From the IMG/VR virus record IMGVR_UViG_3300020312_000025, positions 1-22,737 of that record: a stretch of 22,737 nt of DNA; one strand, 5' to 3'. A program made the position numbers and the translations under genes. Shown here piece by piece: positions 11,026 to 22,737 of the stretch (position 1 is its first letter; the number at the start of each line of letters is the position of its first letter). This stretch comes from a virus. The notes beneath the pieces are model-generated. The model was given only the letters and a program-made list of their open reading frames with translations, had not been told where the DNA came from and searched no databases.

Positions 11026-14000
11026 ATGGCAAAACAGACAAATTTAGAAAAAAGATTAGACGAACTAGAAGCTAGGCAAAACATGTTTTGGGGAGGAGAA
11101 ATAAATTTGCCTACAAGTTACGTTGATCCTAATACAGGTAAAACTATGCCTTTGCCTACTGTTCCTGGTATGGGTCAAAGTAATTTAACTACAGCCTATA
11201 ATCAACAACAAACTATTGGTGGTGCTAATACTATAATAGGTGGTGCAGGTAATGATGTTATTACAGGTGCTAATACTATAACAGGTGGTGCAGGTAACGA
11301 TATTGTAACAGGCGGTGCAGGTAATGATACTATACCAGGAGCTACAGGTGCTAATACTATAACAGGTGGTGCAGGTAATGATACTATACCAGGAGCTACA
11401 GGCGATGCTCCACCTGCAAGTTTAGATGCATTTGGAAGCACTAATATGTATACTGATATGTTCGGTAGAACCATAGGCAATAAAGATAGAAGTCAAGTAA
11501 ATTTATCGGCAACAAAACAAGTAGCAAATGATGATGGTACATATACTAGAATTTACTATGATTATGATGGTAATGAAATAGGTTCTCGTGTTTCAGAAAG
11601 CACAAGACTAGGCGGAACTCAAGATAAAGAAGGTGAAGCTGCATTAAAAACAGAGGATAAAGATACAAATCCTAGGTGGGAAGAAGTAAATAGAATACAA
11701 ACAGCAACTACTATTGATATAATATTACAAGACATGAATCCTGACTCCCCTACTTTTGGGCAGCAAACTATACAAAATATTCCTAGAACAGATACTGTAA
11801 CTGGAGGCACTGGTAACGATACTGTAACTGGTGGCACTGGTGGCACTGGTGGCACTGGTGGGGGAACTGGTGGAACTGGTGGACCAACTAACTATGGAGA
11901 TGTACAAGCTCAGTTTGATCAGATGGCAGGTTTAACAGGAGTAAATCCTGCATTACCTCCTGGTGCTAATGTTGCCCCTGCTATGGACATACAACCACAG
12001 CCTAGTGAATTTGAAACTACTGCAGGTGTTCAGCTAGGTGCTGCTCCTTTAGTAGGAACACAGGTAGTAAGTGATGAACAAATAGCTGCTTTAAATGCTG
12101 CTGGTTATACTATAGCTCCACTTTCTAAACAAGCAAGCAATACAGAAACACTTGCAAATATAACAAACCAAGCACTAACAGCACAGACTAAAGATACTTT
12201 ACTTAGAGAAGCTACTGGTCAAGAAGGCACATTAGGTACAGAATCTGTTATAGGAACTGCACCACAAGCAGAAGCTATAACAGTTAAAAAAGCAGAAGCT
12301 CCTGATACTAATGAAGTAGCAGAAGTATCTAGAAGAGGTACACCTTCTGTAGACGATTTTGTAGGCACTTATGGTGATAAAATACAAGCTGCTAAAAGGT
12401 CAATGGATGTAGGCGATACTGTTCCTGAATTAGACCCACAAACAGCAAACCAAGCCACTGCTCAAGTACAGTATGAAAAAACCGCAGAAGCTACAATGCA
12501 AGCTGCACAAGCTAGTGAAGATGAAAGAACTAGAACTATGGCTCAAGCTGTTGAGCAAGAAATGTCTCAAGTTCCTGTAGAAGCTACTGTTCAAGGACAA
12601 CTAGAAAATCTTATGGCACAATTTGCAGATGGTAAAACTCCTGCATATGCTGCTGGAGCTATTCGTAATGCTCAAGCTATGATGGCTCAAAGAGGTTTAT
12701 CTGCAAGTTCTATGGCAGGTGCTGCTATTATGCAAGCCGCTATGGAATCTTCCATACCTATAGCTGCACAAGATGCTCAAGTATTTAGAGAAATAAATCT
12801 TAGTAATATAAATAATAAACAAAAAGTAGCTTTAGCAAATCAGGCTGCTGCTTTAAATTTATCTTTAGCTGATTTAAGTAATAGACAACAAGCTGCATTG
12901 CAAAATTCTACTAATGGATTTAAATTACAATCACAAAGTTTATCTAATTTACAACAGGCTGCTCTTGCCAATGCACAGCTAAGAGCTGCTCTACAAGATA
13001 GAGAGTTGGCTTTTGATCAACAAAGAGCAATTACAAATGCTGCAAAATATACAGAAATAGAAAATATAAATCTTAGCAACGAACAACAAGGTGTAATGCA
13101 AGATTCTGTAAACAACATAAATTTTGCTATGTCTAACTTGTCTTTTCAACAGCAAAGAAGACTTGCTAAAGCCCAAGTCGATGCTGCATTAACAGGACAA
13201 GAATTAACTAATGACCAACAAAGAGCTGTTATAAATGCTGCTAGAATAGCAGAAGTAAACAATATAAAATTTACTGAAGAGCAAACACGTAATTTAAATG
13301 AAGCTCAAATTATGCAAAACTTAACATTAGCAAATTTAGATGCGGACATGAAGGCTGCTCTTTCTGATGCTGCTAGTTATGCTACTATGGATATGGCTAA
13401 TTTAAACAACAAACAACAAGCTCAAGTTATAAATGCTCAATCTTTTTTAAATTTAGATTTAACTAATTTAAGTAATAAACAACAGGGCGAAGTATTAAAA
13501 TATCAAGCTAGAACTAATGCATTATTTTCAGATGCTGCTGCTGATAATGCTAGAAATCAATTTAATGCACAATCTGAAAATCAAGTTAATCAATTTTTTG
13601 CACAGTTAGGTGCTCAAGTAGCCCAACAAAATGCACAGAGAGTAGCTGCTATGAAACAATTTAATGTAGATCAAGTTAATTCACATGCTAGATTTAATAG
13701 CTCTCTTGTAGATAATAGAGAAAAATTTAATAGCACTATGCAGGCTCAAATTAATCAATCTAACGCACAATGGCGTAGGCAAACAAATACTGTAAACACA
13801 GCAACACAAAATGAAGCTAACAGAATAGACGCTTTAAATTTATTAAACATGAATCAAAATTCATTAAATAATTTATGGCAAGCATATAGAGATGAAGCAT
13901 CATGGTTGTTTACTGAAGGAATGACAGCTAAACAATATGCACATGAAATAGCAAAAATGAATTTAAATGCACAACAACAAAGGGCTTTGTATAACTTACA

Positions 14001-14064
14001 AGTAAAAGGAGATACTGTAGAATCTATAGGAACTGTAGTTGTTGATGCAGCTTTTGGTATATAG
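11026..14064 (+). CDS. Internal virion protein with RTX-like repeats and hendecad stalk
   Basis: This 1012-aa protein starts 3 bases after the XhlA-like stop, with AGGA upstream. Residues 1-60 are a charged helix (NLEKRLDELEARQNMFWG) and linker. Residues 65-127 carry four RTX-like nonapeptides (GGAGNDVIT, GGAGNDIVT, GGAGNDTIP twice), with one more at 260-268 and a Gly-Gly-Thr run after it. Residues ~290-575 are Ala/Gln/Thr-rich. From residue 599 to 922 the chain is a continuous 11-residue-period helix: eleven 22-mers such as QQAALANAQLRAALQDRELA plus FD, then seven 11-mers such as FNSSLVDNREK. The end (ALNLLNMNQN, AQQQRALYNLQ) is also helical. Size, helical content and position fit podovirus proteins ejected into the cell envelope (T7 gp14-16 role). 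No signal peptide, lysozyme or peptidase motif is visible. Confidence 0.68.
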   Translation: MAKQTNLEKRLDELEARQNMFWGGEINLPTSYVDPNTGKTMPLPTVPGMGQSNLTTAYNQQQTIGGANTIIGGAGNDVITGANTITGGAGNDIVTGGAGNDTIPGATGANTITGGAGNDTIPGATGDAPPASLDAFGSTNMYTDMFGRTIGNKDRSQVNLSATKQVANDDGTYTRIYYDYDGNEIGSRVSESTRLGGTQDKEGEAALKTEDKDTNPRWEEVNRIQTATTIDIILQDMNPDSPTFGQQTIQNIPRTDTVTGGTGNDTVTGGTGGTGGTGGGTGGTGGPTNYGDVQAQFDQMAGLTGVNPALPPGANVAPAMDIQPQPSEFETTAGVQLGAAPLVGTQVVSDEQIAALNAAGYTIAPLSKQASNTETLANITNQALTAQTKDTLLREATGQEGTLGTESVIGTAPQAEAITVKKAEAPDTNEVAEVSRRGTPSVDDFVGTYGDKIQAAKRSMDVGDTVPELDPQTANQATAQVQYEKTAEATMQAAQASEDERTRTMAQAVEQEMSQVPVEATVQGQLENLMAQFADGKTPAYAAGAIRNAQAMMAQRGLSASSMAGAAIMQAAMESSIPIAAQDAQVFREINLSNINNKQKVALANQAAALNLSLADLSNRQQAALQNSTNGFKLQSQSLSNLQQAALANAQLRAALQDRELAFDQQRAITNAAKYTEIENINLSNEQQGVMQDSVNNINFAMSNLSFQQQRRLAKAQVDAALTGQELTNDQQRAVINAARIAEVNNIKFTEEQTRNLNEAQIMQNLTLANLDADMKAALSDAASYATMDMANLNNKQQAQVINAQSFLNLDLTNLSNKQQGEVLKYQARTNALFSDAAADNARNQFNAQSENQVNQFFAQLGAQVAQQNAQRVAAMKQFNVDQVNSHARFNSSLVDNREKFNSTMQAQINQSNAQWRRQTNTVNTATQNEANRIDALNLLNMNQNSLNNLWQAYRDEASWLFTEGMTAKQYAHEIAKMNLNAQQQRALYNLQVKGDTVESIGTVVVDAAFGI
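11218..11403 (+). repeat. RTX-like Gly-rich repeat array
   Basis: GGxGxDxxx units lie at 11239-11265, 11284-11310, 11311-11337 and 11365-11391, separated by GANTIT or GATGANTIT spacers that keep the 9-residue step after the second unit. At DNA level a ggtgctaatactata block occurs at 11221, 11266 and 11347, and a 39-bp stretch at 11311 recurs at 11365 with only two or so differences. The pattern matches the calcium-binding nonapeptide of RTX proteins, but four units is a short array. Confidence 0.85.
11803..11886 (+). repeat. Gly-Gly-Thr short tandem repeat
   Basis: One RTX-like nonapeptide (GGTGNDTVT, 11803-11829) grades into a 9-bp tandem repeat ggtggcact (three copies) and degenerate GGT codon units coding GGTGGTGGTGGGTGGTGG. 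The run looks like recent slippage expansion from the nonapeptide and probably acts as a flexible linker. Confidence 0.85.
12820..13791 (+). repeat. 22/11-residue helical repeat array (66/33-bp period)
   Basis: Eleven units of exactly 22 codons start at residues 599, 621, 643, 665, 687, 709, 731, 753, 775, 797 and 819, most beginning QQ or QK. Typical half-units are QQAALANAQLR, QQRAVINAARI and QQAQVINAQSF. From residue 846 seven exact 11-residue units follow (FNAQSENQVNQ, FFAQLGAQVAQ, QNAQRVAAMKQ, FNVDQVNSHAR, FNSSLVDNREK, FNSTMQAQINQ, SNAQWRRQTNT). F-N of these aligns with positions 6-7 of the earlier units, so the phase is unbroken. Only the period and a few positions are conserved, not the full sequence. 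Confidence 0.9.
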
Positions 14065-21448: not shown

Positions 21449-22384
21449 GTGATACAGAGATTACGAGAGTATGCCATAATAGGTATAGCTTTAGGTATAG
21501 TCACAAGTGTGGCATTTGGTGAGGATTCCAATATAACAAATACCACTACGACTACATCTACTGTAACTTCTAACAATACCAACGTAAATACAAATAACAA
21601 TACCAACGTAAATCAAACAACCAGCAACAATACCAACCTCAATACCAACAATACAACCATAAACAGTACTGCAACAAATACAAATAACAACACATCAACA
21701 TCTACTAGCAATGTAACATCGAACATAACTCAAACACAAAATGTTACTAACACAAATAATAGCACTGTAAGTTCTACATCTAACAATACAAATTCATCTA
21801 CAAATAGTAATACAAACATAAACACATCTACAAGTTCAAGCACTGTGAACACACAAAACACTAATAACAATACCAATGTCAATAGTTCACAAAATGTGAA
21901 TACTAACACATCTACCAGCACATCATCTGCTACACAAAAAGTTACACAAAGAATTAAGACTGCCCCTCCATCCGCAGTGAGCCCATCCATCATGTCCTAT
22001 TCTCAAGACCTCTGTACTACAGGAGCTTCAGGAGCTGTTCAAACACAAATCTTTGGTGTATCAGCAGGTAAATCTGTACGAGACGAAAACTGTGAACGTT
22101 TAAAAAATTCCAAAGCCTTATATGACATGGGGATGAAGGTAGCGGCTGTAGCCCTACTTTGTCAAGATTATAAAGTTTTCAGGGCGATGGAACAAAGCGG
22201 CAGTCCTTGTCCGTATAAAGGTAAGATAGGTGCTGAAGCCCAGAAAGCATGGGATGAAAATCCAGAAGACAGACCTGACTGGAATCTTATAAAAGCAGAT
22301 ATGAAAGGGTATGAATTTAGAGCTTACAAGAAAAAAGACTTTTGTAAGAAATACCCAACACAAAAGATATGCTTAAAACCCTAA
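21449..22384 (+). CDS. Exported Asn/Thr-rich protein with six-Cys C-terminal domain
   Basis: GTG at 21449 follows AGGAG (21438-21442); the ATG two bases earlier runs straight into TGA, so GTG is the start. Residues 1-24 are a signal peptide (basic QRLREY, core AIIGIALGIVTSVAFG). Residues ~29-163 are low-complexity Asn, Thr and Ser (NTNVNTNNNTNVNQTTS and similar) with scattered Val and Ile. From about residue 168 a compact domain follows (KTAPPSAVSPSIMSYSQDLC; SVRDENCERLKNSKALYDMG; VAAVALLCQDYKVFRAMEQS) with six cysteines (DLC, ENC, LLC, SPC, DFC, KIC) that could form three disulfides outside the cytoplasm. The AsnThr region is an extended linker or stalk. Related tail domains occur in marine phages, but I know of no assigned function. 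Confidence 0.72.
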   Translation: MIQRLREYAIIGIALGIVTSVAFGEDSNITNTTTTTSTVTSNNTNVNTNNNTNVNQTTSNNTNLNTNNTTINSTATNTNNNTSTSTSNVTSNITQTQNVTNTNNSTVSSTSNNTNSSTNSNTNINTSTSSSTVNTQNTNNNTNVNSSQNVNTNTSTSTSSATQKVTQRIKTAPPSAVSPSIMSYSQDLCTTGASGAVQTQIFGVSAGKSVRDENCERLKNSKALYDMGMKVAAVALLCQDYKVFRAMEQSGSPCPYKGKIGAEAQKAWDENPEDRPDWNLIKADMKGYEFRAYKKKDFCKKYPTQKICLKP

Positions 22385-22737
22385 TATCATTAATCCTACT
22401 TAGTAGTTTTGCCTACGCTAGTGCACCCACCTTCACTGTAGGCACTGACCCCCTCATAGATATAACTTCTACAGGTACTGGATTAAGCTTAGGCGATGAT
22501 CAAATGTCTGGCATGAAGAATATAGGGTTTGACTTTACTTTCTACGACCAGACTTTTTCTCAAGTAAACATATCGATGAACGGATTCTTTACGTTCCAGT
22601 CAAATTTTTCTGTACCTAGAAGTAGGAATTACTTATCCGAAACGCTTCCTGCCACTTCATTTAACTATTCTGTATTCCCTGCTTGGTCTGATTATATTAG
22701 AAGATCATCTGGTAATAAATCTCCCTACATACAAACA
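22369..22737 (+). CDS. Exported nidogen-like protein (3' partial)
   Basis: ATG at 22369 lies inside the end of the Asn/Thr-rich gene (16-base overlap), and the frame stays open to the window end, giving 123 visible residues. Residues 1-19 are a signal peptide (LKTLISLILLSSFAYASA). The mature part has a beta fold with IGFDFTFYDQTFSQVNISMN, GFFTF (71-76) and FPAWSDY (103-109). A hydrophobic F-x-F-x-F strand, then S-M-N-G-F, then F-P-x-W-(S/A)-D-Y is the pattern of the NIDO (nidogen-like) extracellular domain. It is therefore an exported or surface protein, possibly an adhesin or partner of the upstream protein. The pattern match is by eye and the C-terminal part is missing. Confidence 0.62.
   Translation, partial: MLKTLISLILLSSFAYASAPTFTVGTDPLIDITSTGTGLSLGDDQMSGMKNIGFDFTFYDQTFSQVNISMNGFFTFQSNFSVPRSRNYLSETLPATSFNYSVFPAWSDYIRRSSGNKSPYIQT

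Follow-up and report, generated by a model that had tools for sequence, protein, structure and literature searches.

Phage T5 encodes Llp, a periplasmic, disulphide-bonded protein that acts as a receptor blocker and keeps phage from adsorbing to infected cells and to debris (PMC9586334). Pelagiphages carry csgF, csgG and csgA/B in a type VIII secretion region (PMC9599517), and RemA of Flavobacterium johnsoniae has been described as a gliding adhesin (PMC10994853). The PHROGs family phrog_20531, in turn, is listed without function, partner or export. Here, a locus is examined at the end of a 22,737-nucleotide stretch of viral DNA (IMG/VR record IMGVR_UViG_3300020312_000025; hereafter the window), on a contig whose capsid places it with the HMO-2011 type (HTVC033P as the best hit, 53%). 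Two overlapping genes, A and B, lie there, and A belongs to phrog_20531, a family to which no function has been assigned although it occurs in SAR11 phages and in those of other abundant marine bacteria. Judged by gene order among relatives, the pair is really a trio with a third member, C; the exported A and B and the membrane-anchored rod C probably act together on the infected-cell envelope.

The A and B genes of the window

ORF A spans 21449-22384 (+), has a GTG start and encodes 311 aa; ORF B spans 22369-22737 (+), has an ATG start, encodes 123 aa within the window and is open at the contig end. The parts of the two genes are as follows.

21449..21520, + strand: A residues 1-24, predicted Sec signal peptide (hydrophobic core and (-3,-1) site, family-wide; crude rule)
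21521..21952, + strand: A residues 25-168, Asn/Thr/Ser-rich tract with an N period of 2 and a T period of 4, low-confidence in the model
21953..22384, + strand: A residues 169-311, conserved Cys-containing helical domain (phrog_20531), confidently modelled at about 210-290
22369..22384, + strand: 16-nt overlap of A and B, from the ORF coordinates
22369..22422, + strand: B residues 1-18, predicted Sec signal peptide (..SSFAYA-S; crude rule)
22423..22737, + strand: B residues 19-123, start of the head domain (RemA-N/NIDO-like), cut by the contig end

An earlier note on this DNA had described two genes that overlap by 16 bases, both starting with signal peptides, and both points are upheld, the second as signal-peptide-like starts. 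Overlaps of A and B recur in relatives at -13, -16, -28 and -31 nt, which suggests translational coupling. Comparison with relatives gave dN/dS values of 0.06-0.22 for the C-terminal domain of A, 0.11-0.23 for its tract and 0.06-0.18 for B, ratios by which both genes are under purifying selection throughout; because substitutions in the tract are strongly purifying, this low-complexity segment is not junk. A search of Rfam returned no hit.

The assignment of signal peptides follows a crude rule that combines a hydrophobic core with a (-3,-1) site. The core was present in 111 of 115 A and 119 of 126 B relatives and the site in 114 of 115 and 125 of 126, respectively; a lipobox-like motif was rare (2/115 A, 4/126 B). 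Cysteines follow a disulphide-type pattern. The C-terminal domain of A contains six (81) or four (38) cysteines in 119 relatives and never an odd number, and when counting begins at the signal peptide, with the tract included, the number is odd in 6 of 115 A proteins. Proteins of the B family have 0, 2, 4, 6, 8, 10, 12, 14 or 16 cysteines, an even count in 114 of 115, the sole exception being the frame-broken B of locus L163; among neighbouring proteins the count is even in 196 of 289. It should be noted that the relatives in these counts are not independent, and that the counts are to be read as patterns rather than as tests. In L163 (8001-9783), B is split into two ORFs on a contig otherwise very like the window, through a frame break or an assembly error. 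Together, the signal-peptide features and cysteine counts that are even almost without exception indicate an oxidising compartment, and A and B are predicted to be exported. Since neither an outer-membrane exporter nor a lipobox nor CsgG was found that would take them past the outer membrane, the periplasm would be their simplest location.

The tract of A reaches 85% N/T/S over 120 aa, compared with at most 42% in the seven other window proteins tested, and its periodicity exceeds that of shuffled sequences for N at spacing 2 (z 3.3) and for T at spacing 4 (z 6.1). Its length varies from 11 to 351 aa across the family. The tract had previously been described as joined to a six-cysteine domain, and in the window this is accurate (cysteines 189, 215, 238, 254, 299 and 308); across the family only the first four cysteines are common to all, six being present in 81 of 119 relatives. 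The window protein matches phrog_20531 with an E value of 1.2e-16, and 8 of 9 tested relatives match this family too. Structure prediction, which had been proposed for residues 165-311, yielded a confident helical domain at about 210-290 (AlphaFold pLDDT ~95 for residues 220-280), whose fold found no convincing match among the PDB families listed (best Z 2.8). A subset of A proteins, in 13 of 126 loci (L083, L088, L092, L127 and similar) including contigs of 200-350 kb, ends in a hydrophobic tail such as KKIGIGAILGVLVHKLF, which suggests membrane attachment.

Completion of the locus

The extension beyond the contig end that had been called for was obtained from locus L161, which is 99.6% identical to the window over 21455-22737 and continues with the full B of 664 aa, then an 84-aa holin-like ORF and C (81 aa), before convergent genes on the opposite strand. 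The pair had been placed at the end of the virion operon: the cassette does directly follow the large virion genes, but two further genes come after A and B, as the late operon ends A-B-holin-like-C. The holin-like ORF (L161:2899-3153) has a relative in L178 that corresponds to phrog_10198, a family of small holin-like membrane proteins without assigned function that lies beside the cassette in 48 of 126 loci. Within the virion region of the window, calcium-binding repeats of the RTX type are encoded by a 1012-aa gene (11026-14064; Pfam HemolysinCabind, E 3.2e-15). Near its own cassette, the related phage HTVC115P has a gene annotated as a toxin-activating lysine-acyltransferase.

In L161, C consists of a transmembrane helix and a coiled coil and terminates in NPLAQ. 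The coiled coil varies widely in length among relatives and the end is nearly invariant, an NPL terminus being present in 106 of 108 C proteins. Lysine plus arginine counts around the transmembrane helix (1.49 before, 2.09 after) leave its orientation unclear from charge. Two proteins deposited as lysozyme, CRP-207 gp73 (L010:3292-3873) and CRP-810 gp51 (L011:6204-6626), cluster with C, and with their transmembrane helix, coiled coil and NPL end these labels look like mis-annotations.

The complete B protein (664 aa in L161, 640 aa in L013) is modular, with a head, an acidic linker and a shared C-terminal region. The head is modelled as a beta domain (pLDDT ~90 for residues 30-195), and a profile of B matches residues 9-185 of RemA in the PDB (8gl6_D, E 6.1e-15); by profile comparison, the N-terminus of RemA is the one clear link of B to a characterised protein. 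The description of B as nidogen-like was weakly supported, Pfam NIDO being detected in 3 of 37 relatives (best E 0.0019) and not in the window's own lineage member. The B model gave no strong match to the PDB by Foldseek or VIA-align, and the resemblance of residues 489-560 to COMM (Z 4.6) is too weak to be relied on. Comparison of B with PHROGs and of B tails with the phage collection found nothing, an NCBIfam search nothing useful, and a BFVD search with B three low-E hits, all without known function. An acidic linker (at least 35% D/E over 40 aa) is present in 94 of 110 B proteins versus 12 of 180 neighbouring proteins. The C-terminal region is common to 128 of 133 complete B proteins despite differing heads; in other lineages the head is a different, carbohydrate-binding-like domain, recorded as 'putative carbohydrate binding' in deposited entries. 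Between S28C10 and both HTVC033P and HTVC202P, B heads are 58-61% identical and A cores 36-38% (L043, where A was mis-parsed, was left out), and on this comparison B heads are exchanged between lineages.

Conservation and distribution of the trio

A search with the C-terminal domain of A recovered 11 phage records, namely six pelagiphages (including the T4-like Mosig), two roseophages, an Autographiviridae fosmid and two spring-water phages; in loci L002-L009 the order is A, a long exported ORF and a short coiled-coil ORF. Viral contigs yielded at least 600 matched stretches for the A family and 73 loci for B. In each of the 156 distinct A loci whose downstream sequence reaches 400 nt or more, A is followed by a long ORF taken as B (minimum 150 aa, start between -260 and +500 nt relative to the A stop), and A accompanies B in 65 of 73 loci, the remaining 8 being cut at a contig edge. 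Pairing in other marine phages, on which the earlier note had staked its account, is thus near-obligate in both directions. C was recovered by clustering in 109 of 126 non-redundant loci, at a median distance of 10 nt downstream of B. Of the 63 loci flanked by 3 kb on either side, 60 have it, and in the remaining ones (L003, L007 and L128) a C-like or masked ORF is visible by eye. These counts come from sampled best hits and describe close to moderate relatives.

Hosts of the cassette range from podoviruses and a T4-like pelagiphage to contigs of more than 300 kb (331 and 352 kb in L083 and L092), and its position varies, including places beside terminase, primase or head genes. Among sister phages, A is present in HTVC033P, HTVC115P and CRP-207 and absent from HMO-2011, HTVC103P, CRP-1, CRP-345 and CRP-9. 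Likewise, HTVC023P has A and B and HTVC027P lacks them, and both infect HTCC1062. This presence and absence agrees with the proposed accessory nature of the genes and, because sister phages do without it, the cassette is by this distribution not essential. A bacterial origin was considered and rejected: genome contigs yielded only 17 loci, nearly all of them in metagenome-assembled or single-cell genomes, and these look like binned phage because they keep the same A-B(-C) order, a reading that is not proven contig by contig. In the deposited annotation of phage ctXG6705, A was missed and short minus-strand ORFs are listed in its place (L007:5890-6396), and B is labelled transport protein tonB (L007:6269-7375). 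No description of the A-B-C unit was found in the open-access literature, a scope outside which most subscription journals lie, and within it the proposal of an undescribed system stands.

Possible functions of the cassette

A and B could be virion proteins, either fibres or decorations whose N-termini are not signal peptides or proteins that join the particles either in the periplasm or once these have been released. The position of the window cassette, directly after the large genes that end the virion operon, agrees with this, and a fibre could well carry NIDO- or lectin-like heads and N/T/S tracts. The signal-peptide features of nearly all relatives, the almost strictly even cysteine counts and the varied positions of the cassette argue against it, and we consider a virion role quite unlikely. 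Still less credible is a role of A as an amyloid or fibre subunit like curli, secreted by a phage type VIII system and causing aggregation. The tract of A does alternate N with T/V/S, as expected of a beta-former, and pelagiphages elsewhere carry the curli genes mentioned above; however, CsgG (PF03783) was detected in none of 20 cassette-bearing records (some of them fragments), four control genomes being positive, and A gave no Pfam curlin hit at E values up to 1. The type VIII route was rejected, and the cassette is not the pelagiphage curli system, because CsgG is absent from all 20 records.

A role as a host-lysis accessory, in which exported A and B, anchored by C, would weaken or span the outer membrane or wall late in infection in aid of holin, endolysin and spanin, is a serious rival because 44 of 63 non-redundant full-flank loci have genes of the lysis type (endolysin, holin-like, Rz/Rz1) in the interval from -5 to +4 kb, with endolysin in 28 of 63. 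The order in L033 is A-B-C-lipoprotein-Rz-Rz1-lysozyme-TerL, and in the window lineage the holin-like phrog_10198 ORF sits between B and C. Like an i-spanin of the Rz/Rz1 type (phrog_739, phrog_812), C has an N-terminal transmembrane helix, a coiled coil and lysis genes nearby; 3 of 37 C proteins match the Rz-like phrog_739 (best E 5.8e-6) and four match XhlA or DUF2730, comparisons in which coiled coils cross-match. However, canonical Rz (phrog_739, E 1.5e-8) and Rz1 (phrog_812, E 5.7e-12) adjoin C as separate genes in 17 loci, so that C is not simply the i-spanin and replacement of the spanins by the cassette was rejected; the lipobox-like motif expected of an o-spanin is, in turn, rare in A and B. 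A phrog_812 profile run against the isolates matched nowhere, an uninformative search. Moreover, infection and lysis proceed in sister phages that lack the cassette, as with HTVC027P and HTVC023P on their shared host, some cassettes lie away from recognised lysis genes (HTVC202P, Mosig), and an adhesin-like exchangeable head would be unusual for a lysis protein. A lysis function is, on balance, less likely than not.

The explanation tentatively preferred, with a likelihood somewhat short of even, is that A, B and C form an envelope-anchored adhesin or receptor-masking complex in the infected cell. It is favoured because an exchangeable head on a conserved base and an accessory distribution are expected of a surface-interaction function, and because T5 Llp is a precedent for periplasmic receptor blocking by a phage protein. 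In such a complex, presumably made late, the N-terminal helix would anchor C in the inner membrane, with the coiled-coil rod projecting into the periplasm and the NPL end serving as a docking tag. B would leave the cytoplasm via Sec, and its exchangeable head, whether RemA-N/NIDO-like or carbohydrate-binding-like, could bind a surface or outer-membrane ligand, with the acidic linker as a spacer and the shared C-terminal region docking on A or C. A, exported and disulphide-bonded, would contribute its conserved helical domain and, as a stalk, the beta-prone Asn/Thr/Ser tract. The likeliest effect would be that host-surface components are occupied or masked, sparing the phage superinfection and the adsorption of its progeny to infected cells or debris.

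A more ambitious version of the envelope complex is a possibility that we rate as rather improbable: a tripartite machine in which the C rod with its NPL tag holds an exchangeable reader, B, and a disulphide-bonded stalk, A, and remodels the surface of the infected cell to control binding, with only the B head swapped as hosts change, in marine and freshwater phages of all sizes. More generally, a conserved, exported cassette with exchangeable heads, present in some and absent from other similar phages, would give phages a route to alter the surface of some of the ocean's commonest cells.

Comparison with known systems

Phage-encoded envelope modification is a kind of activity already known, and a categorically new mechanism is not claimed here. 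The N-terminal domain that follows the signal peptide of RemA, a T9SS-secreted protein, is homologous to the B head. The match covers that domain only: B is without the other ~1,200 residues of RemA, no T9SS C-terminal domain was seen in it, and, unlike RemA, it has an acidic linker and a C-terminal region of its own and is encoded by phages beside A and C. The pelagiphage type VIII secretion region (PMC9599517) is, like the cassette as interpreted here, a multi-gene envelope module common to SAR11 phage families; its proteins differ from A, B and C, and the cassette records lack CsgG. Similar in the suggested effect are the superinfection-exclusion proteins Llp of T5 and Cor of T1, which are exported, envelope-located phage proteins, as A and B are predicted to be. 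No sequence relation to them is known and the cassette has almost no lipobox; Llp and Cor are single small lipoproteins, whereas the cassette consists of three genes.
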